Below are positions 27,889 to 33,581 of a stretch of 64,000 nt of DNA, in pieces. Every line of letters starts with the position of its first letter. Position 1 is the first letter of the stretch. The stretch is from a virus, in the IMG/VR virus record IMGVR_UViG_3300044639_001193, positions 1 through 64,000 of that record; one strand, given 5' to 3'. Under the pieces are notes generated by a model. It saw only the letters and a list, made by a program, of their open reading frames with translations, was not told where the DNA came from and did no database searches. Position numbers and translations under genes: made by a program.

Positions 27889-29397
27889 ATGGCTTATAGC
27901 CGTCCAGGAGTTTACATTAGTGAACGCCTACTACCGCCTGTGCTCCAAGGTGGAGTAACTGCAAACGCCGCTGGCGCTGTAGTTGCACCATTTGCACAAG
28001 GCCCAGAAGCAGTAACGCTTGTTAACTCTTGGTATGAATTTACCAAGTATTTTGGTGGCTACAACGCCGCCTACCCAGCCACCTTCCAGGTTGGCTCTTA
28101 CTTCTCAAACGGAGGAAAAGAACTTTATGTTCAACGCCTTCTTAAAGCAGATGCAGATGCAGCAAGTGTAATTATCCAAACTTCTGCTTCTGACAATGTT
28201 TGTATTGTTACTGCTAAAAACGCAGGAGCAGACGGAAACAACCTTCGTGTTGTAGTAACTGCTGGTTCAGTAGCCTCTACTTATACACTCACCGTGTACA
28301 GAGAAGCAGGTGTAGCAGGCAATATCTCAGACGACGTTTTACTTGAGCGCTACGAAAACATTGTGTTTAATGACGATGCTTCAAGTGATTTTGCAAACGT
28401 TGTTATCAACACAGTTTCTGCTAATATCACTGTTGCTGCCGTAGATGGTTCAGGAGCACCTGTTCTCACAACATACCCACTTACAGGTGGAGACAACGGA
28501 ACAACTCCAGTGGCTGCTGACTACACAGACTACAAGAGTAGCGGAAGTTCAGTGTTTGAGCGTTTCTCAGCACTAGACCGTCCTCTTGTTGTATTCCTTC
28601 CAGGAATTTGGGCCGCACTTGCTTCTGCTGAAGTTTCAGTTATTGATGCTGCTACCTCATGGGCAGAAGACAATAATGGTTTTGTTGTTATTGAAACAGC
28701 AGCAGACCTAACAGTTGCTAACGCAATTTCAGCAGCAGGAAGTTTGACTGACACCAGTTTTGGTGCTGTCTACTATCCACACGTTTATATCTCAGACCCA
28801 GTAGGTCGTGGTACAGGCGCTCTTCGTCTAATTGGACCATCAGGTGCAATTGCAGGTCTTTACATGGCAACAGATGCAAGCCGTGGTGTCTTTAAGGCTC
28901 CAGCAGGTATTCAAACAACTGTTGCTGGTGTTGTTTCTGTAGAAAAAACCTTTACCTCTGCAGAACTAGACTCAATGAACGCAAGTACATCACCAGTTAA
29001 TCCACTTCGCCAGATTCCTGGTGCAGGTCTTTCTGTAATGGGTGCTCGCACACTTAAGCAAGATGGTACAGCGAACAAGTATGTAAACATGCGCCGTTCA
29101 CTTATCTACATCCGTAAGCAACTCAAAAACAACACAGAGTTTGCTATTTTTGAGAACAACGACGAAAAGTTGTGGTCACGTATCCGCAGCACACTTACCG
29201 TGTTCCTCACTGAATACAAAAACCAAGGCGGACTTCGTGGTGCAAACAACGCTCAGGCTTTCTTCATCAAGTGTGATGCAGAAAACAACACAGCAACCAC
29301 AATCGCTAACGGCGAAGTGCACATCCAAGTTGGTGTAGCACTCCAATACCCAGCAGAGTTTATTGTCATTGACCTAAGTCAAAAGACAATTAACTAG
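27889..29397 (+). CDS. tail sheath protein
   Basis: A 502-residue sheath subunit; contraction of its helical array drives the tube through the cell envelope. Diagnostic stretches are SRPGVYISERLLPP at the N-terminus, VAPFAQGPEAVTLVNSWYEF (residues 30-50), FFANGG-type FSNGGKELYVQRL and a C-terminal domain with RQIPGAGLSVMGARTL, NMRRSLIYIRKQLKNNTEFA and FENNDEKLWSRIRSTLTVFL. Length and domain order match myophage sheaths. TAGGAGA precedes the ATG. This gene fixes the virus as contractile-tailed. Confidence 0.95.
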   Translation: MAYSRPGVYISERLLPPVLQGGVTANAAGAVVAPFAQGPEAVTLVNSWYEFTKYFGGYNAAYPATFQVGSYFSNGGKELYVQRLLKADADAASVIIQTSASDNVCIVTAKNAGADGNNLRVVVTAGSVASTYTLTVYREAGVAGNISDDVLLERYENIVFNDDASSDFANVVINTVSANITVAAVDGSGAPVLTTYPLTGGDNGTTPVAADYTDYKSSGSSVFERFSALDRPLVVFLPGIWAALASAEVSVIDAATSWAEDNNGFVVIETAADLTVANAISAAGSLTDTSFGAVYYPHVYISDPVGRGTGALRLIGPSGAIAGLYMATDASRGVFKAPAGIQTTVAGVVSVEKTFTSAELDSMNASTSPVNPLRQIPGAGLSVMGARTLKQDGTANKYVNMRRSLIYIRKQLKNNTEFAIFENNDEKLWSRIRSTLTVFLTEYKNQGGLRGANNAQAFFIKCDAENNTATTIANGEVHIQVGVALQYPAEFIVIDLSQKTIN

Positions 29398-29417: not shown

Positions 29418-30044
29418 ATGGCAATAGTAAATAGCCGCTCAACGTTAGCCACAGACCCAGTACGTAACTTTCGGTTCTTGGTAACATTTGAACCACAAGA
29501 TACAAGTAACACAGGCCTTGGAACCACAACTATCCCTATGGGCTTTACCTCAGTATCTGGATTGGCTGTTACAACAGACTCAATCCCTTACCGTGAAGGT
29601 GGATACAACACCACTGTTCACCAAATTCCAGGACAGACATCGTTCACACCTATCACTTTGCAACGTGGCGTAATCCTCGGAAGCAAGCAAAATTGGGATT
29701 GGATGAAGCAGTTGTTCGCAACTGTACAGGCTGGCGGTTCAACCCTTGCATTAGGAAAGAACTTTCGTTGCGACCTTGAGATTGCGGTATTAAACCACCC
29801 AATCCCATCTTCAGGTGCAAACGTACTTTCTGGTGATGTAGCAGCAACTGCACCAAAAGATGAAGTTGCAATGCGCTTTAAAGTGTTCAATGCATGGCCT
29901 ACAACAGTGGCATACTCAGACTTAAACGCTGGTGATAATGCTCTCTACGTTGAACAAATGACCCTCGTACACGAAGGCTTTGACCTCAACTGGGGTGCGT
30001 TTAACACTACAACTAAGGCATTTGAAAACGCAGCAGACTTCTAA
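29418..30044 (+). CDS. tail tube protein
   Basis: A 208-residue protein just after the sheath, the standard location for the tube. It has the pattern of contractile-tail tube subunits: DPVRNFRFLVTFEPQD, GFTSVSGLAVTTDSIPYREG, a HQIPGQTSFTPITLQRGVIL strand pair and a C-terminal FKVFNAWPTTVAYSDLNAG...MTLVHEGFDL. Hexameric rings of this protein form the conduit for DNA. Confidence 0.94.
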   Translation: MAIVNSRSTLATDPVRNFRFLVTFEPQDTSNTGLGTTTIPMGFTSVSGLAVTTDSIPYREGGYNTTVHQIPGQTSFTPITLQRGVILGSKQNWDWMKQLFATVQAGGSTLALGKNFRCDLEIAVLNHPIPSSGANVLSGDVAATAPKDEVAMRFKVFNAWPTTVAYSDLNAGDNALYVEQMTLVHEGFDLNWGAFNTTTKAFENAADF

Positions 30045-30061: not shown

Positions 30062-30868
30062 ATGACGAAAACAATTAGTGCAGCGGCTAATCCCGCAATG
30101 GCAAACAAAGCCGCTCAAGACATGATGGCTGAACAGCCTCAAGAAATAGAAGTAACGATTACACCTCCTTCGGACACAGTAGTTAACCTTCCTGGCGGAT
30201 ACATAACATCCGCTGGGGAGGTTGCTACCGAAGCAGAAGTACGTGAACTAAATGGTCGTGACGAAGAAGAAATCTCAAAGGCAAGCACTTTGGGTAAAGC
30301 GCTTTTAACAATCTTAAAGCGTGGAACCGTACGTGTTGGTAATGAGCCAGTATCTGAAAAAATGTTAGATGCTCTCCTTTCAGGTGACCGAGACATGCTT
30401 CTTGTAGGAATCTTTAAAGCAACATTTGGAAACATTGCACACTTGGGTGGCTATTGTGGCTCTTGTGCAGAGACCAAAGAAGTTGATATAGAAATTGATA
30501 AAGACATTAAGGTAAAGGTTTTAACAGACCCAGTTAATGACCGTACCTTTACCGTAAAAGGTAAAACTGAATACTTAGTACAACTACCAACTGGTATTAC
30601 TCAAAAAGAACTACTTCTTAGTGCGGATAAAACAATCCCTGAACTAAACACACTTCTTTTACAGAATACAGTTGTTAAAATTGGAGATTCACCAGTAGTA
30701 AGCAAGATTCAAGTATTAAACATCGGCCTTACAGACCGTCGCAAGATTGTTGACGAAATCAACAACCGACTATGTGGACCACAGTTTAACGACTTAACGC
30801 TTGATTGCCCAGATTGTGAAGGCGAGGTACAGGTCCCTATTAGTTTAGGCACCTTGTTTCGTTTCTAG
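30062..30868 (+). CDS. tail assembly chaperone, upstream frame
   Basis: A 268-residue protein between tube and tape measure, the universal place of tail assembly chaperones. It contains the VRELNGRDEEEISKA stretch (about 60-74) seen in T4-gp26-like and Mu-gp41-like assembly proteins. Two C-x2-C pairs (Cys 132/135 and 249/252) probably form one zinc ribbon split across the chain. It ends at TAG 30866-30868; the downstream 145 bases are open in the +1 frame and look like its frameshifted extension (30849-31007). Confidence 0.82.
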   Translation: MTKTISAAANPAMANKAAQDMMAEQPQEIEVTITPPSDTVVNLPGGYITSAGEVATEAEVRELNGRDEEEISKASTLGKALLTILKRGTVRVGNEPVSEKMLDALLSGDRDMLLVGIFKATFGNIAHLGGYCGSCAETKEVDIEIDKDIKVKVLTDPVNDRTFTVKGKTEYLVQLPTGITQKELLLSADKTIPELNTLLLQNTVVKIGDSPVVSKIQVLNIGLTDRRKIVDEINNRLCGPQFNDLTLDCPDCEGEVQVPISLGTLFRF

Positions 30869-31007
30869 CAGAATTTCATACGCTCAATTACTTTTTGAGT
30901 GGAAAAGAGTAGCGGACTACTACCCAGGATGGACGTTGGCAGATATACAAAATCTGTCAAGAAGAGAAAGAGACAACTGGTTACAAATACACCAGTTAAA
31001 GAGTTAA
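30849..31007 (+). CDS. tail assembly chaperone frameshift extension
   Basis: The +1 frame relative to the upstream chaperone is open from after TAG 30846-30848 to TAA 31005-31007 and encodes a convincing protein segment: SYAQLLFEWKRVADYYPGW then TLADIQNLSRRERDNWLQIH. No ATG, GTG or TTG precedes this segment in its frame, so independent initiation is unlikely. A TTT-C at 30857-30860 lets tRNA-Phe slip +1 from UUU to UUC, giving a fusion of about 314 residues. A -2 slip would give the same frame. Frameshifted chaperone pairs at this position are a known tail-phage feature; the exact slip site is inferred. Confidence 0.72.
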   Translation, partial: APCFVSSRISYAQLLFEWKRVADYYPGWTLADIQNLSRRERDNWLQIHQLKS

Positions 31008-31016
31008 GGAGATGAC

Positions 31017-33581
31017 ATGGGTTATGCAGCAGATGTAAAAGCCTTAACCGCTGACATCGCTAAACTTACTGAAGCAATTAACGCTATGCACGCTGCCCTT
31101 TCATCAACGGGCAAAGAGGCAGGTGGCATTTTCTCTTCTCTTAAAGGCATCATTGGAAAAGGTGGTCAACGCGGAGTTGGCTCAACTGGTGGTAACAAAC
31201 TAAGCGGTTCACTTGCTGGGTTCAGTACTCCTACAAGTACACCTAAGAGTATGAACACCAACGGTGGTCAGGGTGGTGGCGGTGAAGTAGGAGGCGGTAC
31301 TACCCCTAACGGTGGCGGCGCTTCTTTCGGTGGAGTACCGATGGTTGGCTCCAGTATGTCCCGAATGGTTCAAGGCCAAGGCTACGCTGCAATTGGTTCT
31401 GGAATGATGGGGGCAGTAAAGGCTGTTGTTGGAACTGTTTACGACGCTGCTCCAGATTCTTCTGGCGTAGTAAACCGTGCTGGTTCATACTATCAAGCAG
31501 CGCTACGTTCTCCAGGAATGGCACGAGCAGGATTAGCACAAGCAACTTTTAGCGCATTAAAAGGTGGACTAAGCAGCATTGGCTCTGACGCAAATGTTGC
31601 AAACATCCTTGCAAATGCTGGCTATGTTCCAGGTAGTAAAGATTATTTATCTGCCGCACGCCAAACACGAGGTGCGGCAACTTACCTTGGAATGCAAAAT
31701 GAAAATGCAGCCTCTGCAATTGCAGGGCTACAAGGTGGGCCGATGTCTGCTCAACTTTATCAATATGGCATTACAACTATGGGTGCAAATGGTGAGGCTA
31801 AAAGTGTTGGTGACATTGCTAAGCAACTTTATAGCGTTATGTTCCCAGGCGGTGCTACACCTAAAAGCGTTCAAGAATCTCTTCGTAGTGGTTATGCAGA
31901 CCTAAACTTACAAGGTTTGGGGATGAACGCAGACCAAAAACAGATGATTAGCCAAGCATTTATTGATATTGCTGGAGGAAAAAACCCTGACCTTGCCTCT
32001 GCAAAGTCTGCTAAAGATAACCAAAATCCTTTTGACCCACTTTACCGAATGAATACTTCTTCCACCATGATTCAAGGTGCTGCAGAAAAAAATACTCTTT
32101 CTGGTCTTGGCGCTGCAGCAGGAACTATTGAAACATTTAACAATGTTATGAAAGACACCATTGCATCTATGTCTACCTTAAAGGGTTACCTAGATGGTCT
32201 ACAAGGTAATCCACAAGGTTCTGCTCTAAAGAAGGGTGCACAGGGCCTTTGGAGTGCTGGCAAAAAAATTGTTGGCGGCCTAATGATGCTTGGTGGCGGA
32301 GCATTAGCCGCAACAGGAGGTGGAGTTGTACCAGGATTAGCAATTGCTAGTGGAGGTGCCGCTCTTGCTTTTGGTGGAGGTACACCAGGTTACGGTTCTT
32401 CTTTTGGTGGTCGTAATTTAGGCTCAGGAAAATATGCAAACAATCTTGTAAGTGCTGCTTACGGTGCACGGGATGCACAAGGCGGTAACTGGGATAGTAC
32501 TGGTGGAGTTCACCAAGGAACAGACTACAACGTTAAAGTTGGAACACCTGTAGTAGCAGTTAAAGAGGGCGTTGTTTCTGACAAAGTGTTAAGCGCCGAT
32601 TATGGACAAGCAGTACTCCTTGACCACGCAGATGGGTACTCTTCTCTTTATGCACACTTAAGTTCTAAACAAGCAACTCCTGGAACAAGAGTATTTCAAG
32701 GACAAAAAATTGGTGAGTCTGGAAAATCAGGTAATGCTACTGGCCCACACTTGCACTACGAGGTATGGCATGGACCTAACAACCCTGTAGACCCAGCAGA
32801 GTTAACAAATGCTGGTTTGCCTGTTTCTGGCTCAAACGTTACTCAAAACATGAACGTTTCAAATCCAAACTTATTATCCGATGTAACAAGCATTAGTGCT
32901 TTAGGTAATACCAGTTCTGGTGGTTCAAGCGGTTCAAGCGGTTCTTTATCCCTTGTTAAGGGCACTGGAGACAAAAAGACTTGGGCTACTCAATTGCTTA
33001 CAGCAATGGGTGCCCCTGTATCTGATACCAACATTAATGCCCTTACAACTTGGCAAAGCAGAGAAGGTGGTCACTGGAATAACAGTGCCAACTATAACCC
33101 GCTTAACACCACGCTTGACATGGGTAACTCTGAAAGTATGAACAGTGTTGGAGTAAAACGTTACAAGTCTTGGGAAGAAGGAATTCAAGCAACGATTAAA
33201 ACTTTAACAGGCGGAAGTGCAGATGCTCGTGGTTATACAGCCATTGTTAATGCTTTAAAGAGCGGTGCAGACACAGCAACAATTCTTAAAGCAGTTAGCA
33301 ACTCTGCCTGGGTAACAGGTAAAACTGGTCAAAACAGTTATAAAGGCTTTACAGGTGGCGGTACTCCTGGTTCTCCTGGTATTCCAAACCCAGACACTAC
33401 AAGCCAAAACATAACGCCTACGCCTATCCCAGTTACAACTCCACAAGCAAGTGAATCTAAAGTTGTTAATTTTAATGTTTATTTAAACGATGTATCCGAT
33501 GCTCAAGCATTACTTTGGGCTAGAAAAGTTGAAACGTACTTGCACGATAAAAAAGAAATTTCTTTAATGGGAGGTAAGTAA
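31017..33581 (+). CDS. tape measure protein with M23 endopeptidase and lysozyme-like domains
   Basis: An 854-residue protein that sets tail length and carries wall-degrading domains. The N-terminal half is Gly/Ala/Ser-rich with helical stretches and a hydrophobic region near 411-455. Residues 490-600 are an M23 (lysostaphin-type) domain: HQGTDYN with His 499 and Asp 503, YAHLS near 546, and GPHLHYE with His 578 and His 580. Residues 650-775 resemble a lysozyme-like domain (TWQSREGGHWNNSANYNPLN with Glu 683; KRYKSWEEGIQATIKTLTGG). Both probably help the tail cross the cell wall. It starts after AAGGAG. Confidence 0.9.
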   Translation: MGYAADVKALTADIAKLTEAINAMHAALSSTGKEAGGIFSSLKGIIGKGGQRGVGSTGGNKLSGSLAGFSTPTSTPKSMNTNGGQGGGGEVGGGTTPNGGGASFGGVPMVGSSMSRMVQGQGYAAIGSGMMGAVKAVVGTVYDAAPDSSGVVNRAGSYYQAALRSPGMARAGLAQATFSALKGGLSSIGSDANVANILANAGYVPGSKDYLSAARQTRGAATYLGMQNENAASAIAGLQGGPMSAQLYQYGITTMGANGEAKSVGDIAKQLYSVMFPGGATPKSVQESLRSGYADLNLQGLGMNADQKQMISQAFIDIAGGKNPDLASAKSAKDNQNPFDPLYRMNTSSTMIQGAAEKNTLSGLGAAAGTIETFNNVMKDTIASMSTLKGYLDGLQGNPQGSALKKGAQGLWSAGKKIVGGLMMLGGGALAATGGGVVPGLAIASGGAALAFGGGTPGYGSSFGGRNLGSGKYANNLVSAAYGARDAQGGNWDSTGGVHQGTDYNVKVGTPVVAVKEGVVSDKVLSADYGQAVLLDHADGYSSLYAHLSSKQATPGTRVFQGQKIGESGKSGNATGPHLHYEVWHGPNNPVDPAELTNAGLPVSGSNVTQNMNVSNPNLLSDVTSISALGNTSSGGSSGSSGSLSLVKGTGDKKTWATQLLTAMGAPVSDTNINALTTWQSREGGHWNNSANYNPLNTTLDMGNSESMNSVGVKRYKSWEEGIQATIKTLTGGSADARGYTAIVNALKSGADTATILKAVSNSAWVTGKTGQNSYKGFTGGGTPGSPGIPNPDTTSQNITPTPIPVTTPQASESKVVNFNVYLNDVSDAQALLWARKVETYLHDKKEISLMGGK

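Follow-up and report, generated by a model that had tools for sequence, protein, structure and literature searches.

Frameshifted tail assembly chaperones are well known in tailed phages, with a -1 shift being the usual event. In the lambda type, one gene yields a short form (gpG) and an extended form (gpGT) through a -1 shift at a heptamer, and the gene lies between the major tail gene and the tape measure gene. We analyzed a window of 64,000 nucleotides (positions 1 to 64,000 of the 99,750-base IMG/VR virus record IMGVR_UViG_3300044639_001193), in which a tail assembly chaperone gene of the Pfam family PF12322 very probably produces a short and an extended form by a +1 slip at UUU-C, a reading strongly supported by sequence comparison among relatives. 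The locus resembles lambda gpG/gpGT in the position of the gene, in the short and extended forms expected from one gene, in an extension without its own start, and possibly in the chaperone fold (top PDB match 2ob9, E = 0.14). It differs from the lambda type in that the putative shift is +1 at UUU-C, that the chaperone is larger, carries CxxC pairs and belongs to the family of T4 gp26 and gp51, and that the phages are contractile-tailed with a T4-like tube and sheath. As in prfB (CUU-UGA with an upstream Shine-Dalgarno, or SD, sequence), the +1 slip would move the P-site tRNA onto a better-pairing codon downstream of an SD-like sequence; however, the SD of prfB is 3 nt away, whereas the SD-like sequence here is 28 nt away and the A-site codon is CGN or CAR.

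A +1 frameshift is suspected in the tail chaperone of the haloarchaeal myovirus HSTV-2 (PMC5009743), another in Listeria phage PSA is known to us from a title cited in PMC9024508, and the +1 events of PSA and SPP1 gp17.1* fall in structural proteins (PMC6316719). What HSTV-2 and PSA have in common with this locus is a +1 shift, putative here, in a tail-chaperone or structural gene of a tailed virus. The open-licence literature yielded no report that a PF12322 gene is frameshifted, and none that treats gp26/gp51 as a G/GT pair.

Conservation of the putative slip site

The 0-frame gene ends in TTG TTT CGT TTC TAG, with TTT at 30857-30859 and the following C at 30860 (window coordinates; other features in Table 1). 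The +1 frame is open for 52 codons, from 30849, immediately after a +1 stop (TAG, 30846-30848), to TAA at 31005-31007. Since the +1 frame is open only from 30849 and the 0-frame stop lies at 30866-30868, any shift is confined to 30849-30868; within this interval, perfect P-site re-pairing one base on is possible only at TTT followed by C. The chaperone stop at 30866-30868, the TTT-C at 30857-30860 and the +1 frame of about 50 open codons, all read off by a model in a first-pass annotation, were confirmed in the window sequence.

Relatives were drawn from viral contigs, isolate phages and bacterial contigs. TTT-C, which the first-pass annotation had proposed as the +1 slip site, is invariant and in frame in all 113 distinct junctions; in 112 of them it lies 1 to 3 sense codons ahead of the 0-frame stop (2 codons in 101, 3 codons in 10, 1 codon in 1). 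In L186 (3796-3830), one base change (TAA to TAT) has removed the 0-frame stop; TTT-C remains, the +1 frame is intact, and the 0-frame terminates a few codons past the lost stop. Only two junctions follow TTT with a codon other than CGN or CAA/CAG, so that the first base C is kept although the codon varies. As a control, wherever else in these genes a Phe codon precedes C, it is TTT in 14 cases and TTC in 24 (14/38 TTT). In the open reading frames (ORFs) of the window, TTT accounts for 55 of 102 Phe codons before C and for 177 of 195 before G; it is disfavored before pyrimidines, yet invariant at the slip site.

TTT-C is retained at 30-40% identity, in Streptomyces phages and in bacterial contigs of 61-68% GC. 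GC-rich relatives seldom use TTT for Phe (L245, 1 of 68 codons; L243, 5 of 56) and still have it at the site, and in a jumbo phage at 25% identity the sequence is TTT-CTA and the +1 frame is open. Since many of the relatives are akin to one another, the junction counts are not independent events; the argument is carried by the spread of identity, from 98% to 25%. Relatives of the chaperone together with its +1 extension (L241-L245) were found in contigs of Saccharothrix, two Streptomyces, Terracoccus and a Proteobacteria metagenome-assembled genome, which are probably prophages or phage contigs.

The +1 frame as coding sequence

Taken alone, 48 open codons would arise by chance with P of about 0.03. 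Past the 0-frame stop, 27 relatives have no stop in the +1 frame, and 90 and 69 stops in the other two frames. The ratio of nonsynonymous to synonymous differences (pN/pS) is 0.41 in the +1 frame vs. 0.89 and 1.46 in the others, and codon position 2 is the least variable in the +1 frame (82 sequences). These comparisons point to protein-type selection on the +1 frame. It encodes a near-invariant motif, Y..L..EW..L...GWTLTEI..LS.RER.NW, of which R[ED]R is found in 96 of 97 distinct extensions. Alignment of homologues, which the first-pass annotation had recommended as a check, thus found both the +1 frame and the slip site conserved. Its statement that the +1 frame has no canonical start codon is correct for ATG and GTG in the window, but not for TTG, which is present at 30936 inside the conserved motif; an ATT is at 30873. 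An ATG, GTG or TTG occurs within the first 10 codons in 12 of the 97 distinct extensions, and none is conserved, so the search for homologues with a separately started segment yielded no conserved start. The extension, modeled by AlphaFold as a chain separate from the chaperone, forms three helices (predicted local distance difference test, pLDDT, 79); it has no Pfam match, and its best PHROG is unconvincing (0.026).

In Streptomyces phage records, the extension is either a separate hypothetical gene or omitted. It is annotated as a gene in GiJojo (L025, 4770-4967), BRock (L026, 4767-4949), LuckySocke (L028, 4815-4970) and Alone3 (L029, 4815-4970), with starts that fall inside the conserved motif, and pSt2308 (L027) has no call. 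The separate-gene annotations are likely misannotations.

Identity of the chaperone

The 0-frame protein matches PF12322, the family of T4 gp26 and gp51 (E = 2e-7, 31.3 bits vs. a curated cut-off of 24.5), and so do 38 of 38 aligned relatives at E <= 1e-3. Compared with 350,542 PDB chains, the AlphaFold model of the chaperone (pLDDT 88.6) has as its first match 2ob9, the HK97 tail assembly chaperone (probability 0.96, E = 0.14), and a second 2ob9 chain is at rank 4 (probability 0.72); the template modeling scores by target are 0.47-0.53. Despite the weak E-value, this first match is the answer expected for a tail chaperone and gives the predicted fold some support. Numerous predicted "baseplate hub" proteins of myoviruses also match the model, gp26 of Aeromonas phage 25 among them; Bacillus phage BCD7 is another structural neighbor. 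Gene order, PF12322 membership and the HK97-chaperone-like fold together support the role of tail assembly chaperone that the first-pass annotation had assigned. The link to T4 gp26/gp51 and the upstream RNA elements described below are absent from that annotation. A search for the sheath in genome contigs found nothing.

Candidate stimulators upstream of the putative slip site

Sequence conservation points to GAGGU and an upstream hairpin as candidate frameshift stimulators. The Glu-Val codons at -33 to -28 (30824-30829) are GAG in 70 of 70 sequences, compared with 31% GAG overall, and GTA in 68 of 70; GAGGT is present in 67 of 68 picked sequences and AGGT in 68 of 68. In the divergent L244 and L246, GGAGGTGA and GAGGAGGTGA occur near the same place and encode other amino acids. 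The hairpin pairs -21/-18 with -11/-8, for which we counted 22 doubly changed cells vs. 7.0 after shuffling, the covariation being at third codon positions; at the pair -19/-10, UA occurs in 35, CG in 13, GC in 5 and AU in 4 among 70. On 70S ribosomes, a refolding hairpin that lies upstream, beside the E site, is able to promote +1 slippage (PMC6321510). The hairpin would bring GAGGU, which ends 28 nt ahead of the slip codon, effectively closer to it. A longer stem joining GAGGUA to the slip region was not accepted, its pairs being nearly invariant and without changes on both sides. Downstream of the slip site there was no consensus structure (alifold energy 0.0; single-sequence fold z = -1.3), and Rfam returned no match for either RNA element.

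Proposed mechanism and alternatives

We propose that most ribosomes would terminate at TAG 30866 and release the short form of 268 residues, which corresponds to lambda gpG. Some would instead pause with peptidyl-tRNA-Phe on UUU (30857-30859) and slip +1 onto UUC, because the GAA anticodon of Phe-tRNA pairs better with UUC than with UUU; these ribosomes would read the +1 frame to 31004 and produce the 314-residue form, the gpGT counterpart, with its predicted three-helix C-terminal extension. The short form may serve to coat the tape measure and the extension to bring in tube subunits, and GAGGU and the hairpin may aid slippage. Both the occurrence and the efficiency of slippage at UUU-C are what we infer from sequence. 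UUU-CGN (Phe-Arg) is reportedly the dicodon type that Schwartz and Curran studied for +1 slippage in 1997 (NAR 25:2005).

Several observations weigh against this proposal. The A-site codon is often a common one (among the Arg codons of the window, CGT is used most), and the stop codon lies outside the A site. TTT-C occurs in frame 55 times in the window ORFs, so TTT-C alone cannot be sufficient. GAGGU ends 28 nt ahead of the slip codon, a wider spacing than we know of for any frameshift SD. The E-value of the HK97 fold match is weak by itself, and the extension model had no significant structural match. Pausing at a rare codon was ruled out, as the A-site codon ranges over common and rare codons. 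No tRNA genes were found in the window, so nothing there supports an explanation by phage tRNA.

The +1 segment might instead be a separate small gene, with its own initiation or with reinitiation after TAG, as it is annotated in the four Streptomyces phages; a TTG or ATG does lie inside the segment in some relatives. We regard this as improbable: early start codons are confined to the 12 extensions counted above, the annotated starts vary among phages and lie past the invariant Tyr and Glu, and a separate gene leaves the conservation of TTT-C unexplained. A -2 shift, which the first-pass annotation had offered as the alternative to +1, would enter the same frame, and Mu-like phages are known for -2 shifts. 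It is unsupported here, because Phe-tRNA would have to move from TTT to TGT or TAT and the Arg or Gln tRNA from CGN or CAR to TTC, neither of which re-pairs. For a -1 shift at a different site as well as for -2, there is no conserved XXXYYYZ heptamer, the sole invariant motif being TTT-C, which is ideal for +1; we consider this group of shifts slightly less probable again than a separate gene.

Transcriptional slippage or RNA editing would likewise fuse the two frames, with no tool result in favor, and appears very unlikely: most relatives have just three T (TTTC), too short a run for the polymerase, and the kept codon phase and the preference for TTT over TTC fit tRNA re-pairing better. An indel from sequencing or assembly in one contiguous gene is a typical source of apparent frameshifts, again with no tool result in favor, and has the least probability of all. 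Such an indel, which the first-pass annotation had named among the refuting outcomes, is excluded by identical frames across more than 100 independent contigs and in isolate genomes.

Relationship to T4 gp26 and gp51

The chaperone profile aligned with residues 61-201 of T4-type gp51 (E = 6e-6, single comparison), the slip Phe being the point at which the alignment ends, and the alignment of gp26 with gp51 reaches gp51 residue 203 and then ends. Past the equivalent of the slip Phe, gp51 runs 48 residues more, and the frameshift extension also has 48 residues. The C-terminal stretch of gp51 carries YSLNSISKMIPAER, which resembles GWTLTEIKxLSxRER, and when the fused profile is used, the alignment continues across the extension (GWTLTEIKxLSxRER vs. 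YSLxSIMxMLPxER; E = 7e-4). The extension alone matched gp51 weakly (hhalign, P about 0.003-0.02); the T4 link therefore rests on the joint alignment and is put forward as a hypothesis.

T4 gp26 and gp51, known as "baseplate hub" and "hub assembly" chaperones, share PF12322 with the gene described here. One PF12322 gene per genome was found in G000 and in six other frameshifting records, and two in T4 and Muldoon; in T4 the short and long forms would be two divergently oriented genes, whereas here there is one gene plus putative frameshifting. We give an even chance to the hypothesis that gp26/gp51 are G/GT from duplicated genes and that the lineage studied here is the one-gene, +1-frameshift version, stimulated by the upstream SD-like element and a refolding hairpin and not by a stop codon or downstream structure. 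If true, T4, the phage cited as departing from the conserved G/GT frameshift, would be no exception in design. Frameshifting of a PF12322 gene in relatives, together with an extension matching gp51, leads to a specific and testable claim on the roles of gp26 and gp51. In Citrobacter phage Moon (L151, 1650-2541), a joined gp27/gp28 gene has been noted as a "GT-like fusion"; under the +1 reading proposed here, the G/GT counterparts would be gp26/gp51 and not gp27/gp28 of Moon.

Gene neighborhood and an additional hairpin

The chaperone gene sits between the tail tube gene (upstream) and the tape measure gene (downstream), and the order sheath-tube-chaperone-tape measure is common to the window and the Streptomyces phages (Table 1). 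The M23 peptidase domain occupies about residues 498-593 of the tape measure protein.

Table 1. Features at and around the putative +1 frameshift site, in window coordinates
Feature	Position	Strand	Basis
Tail sheath protein	27889..29397	+	phrog_23 E 5e-48; PF17482
Tail tube protein, T4 gp19 family	29418..30044	+	PF06841 E 1e-27
0-frame tail assembly chaperone, T4_baseplate family, short G-like form, 268 aa	30062..30868	+	PF12322, AlphaFold model
SD-like GAGGU, candidate stimulator, -33 to -29 from slip codon	30824..30828	+	Synonymous conservation
Upstream hairpin CCUA..UAGG, candidate stimulator, -21/-18 with -11/-8	30836..30849	+	Covariation
+1 frame ORF, 48-residue C-terminal extension (T-like); putative frameshift product 314 aa	30849..31007	+	Stop-free in all relatives; purifying selection; motif
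Putative +1 slip site UUU-C, P-site Phe-tRNA from UUU to UUC	30857..30860	+	In-frame conservation
0-frame stop TAG, 2 sense codons past slip codon	30866..30868	+	Window sequence
Tape measure protein with M23 peptidase domain, ATG at 31017	31017..33581	+	PF01551 E 4e-28; tape-measure PHROGs

A separate hairpin lies within the chaperone gene at 30188-30220 (codons 43-53), with 12 bp in the form CTTCCTGGCGGA-9 nt-TCCGCTGGGGAG. It has no Rfam match and is missing from the Streptomyces group. In 68 relatives, 97.1% of its cells are paired, compared with 42-63% in slid controls, and compensatory changes are in excess (55 doubly changed cells vs. 19.8 after shuffling). This hairpin includes an SD-like GGGGAGG.
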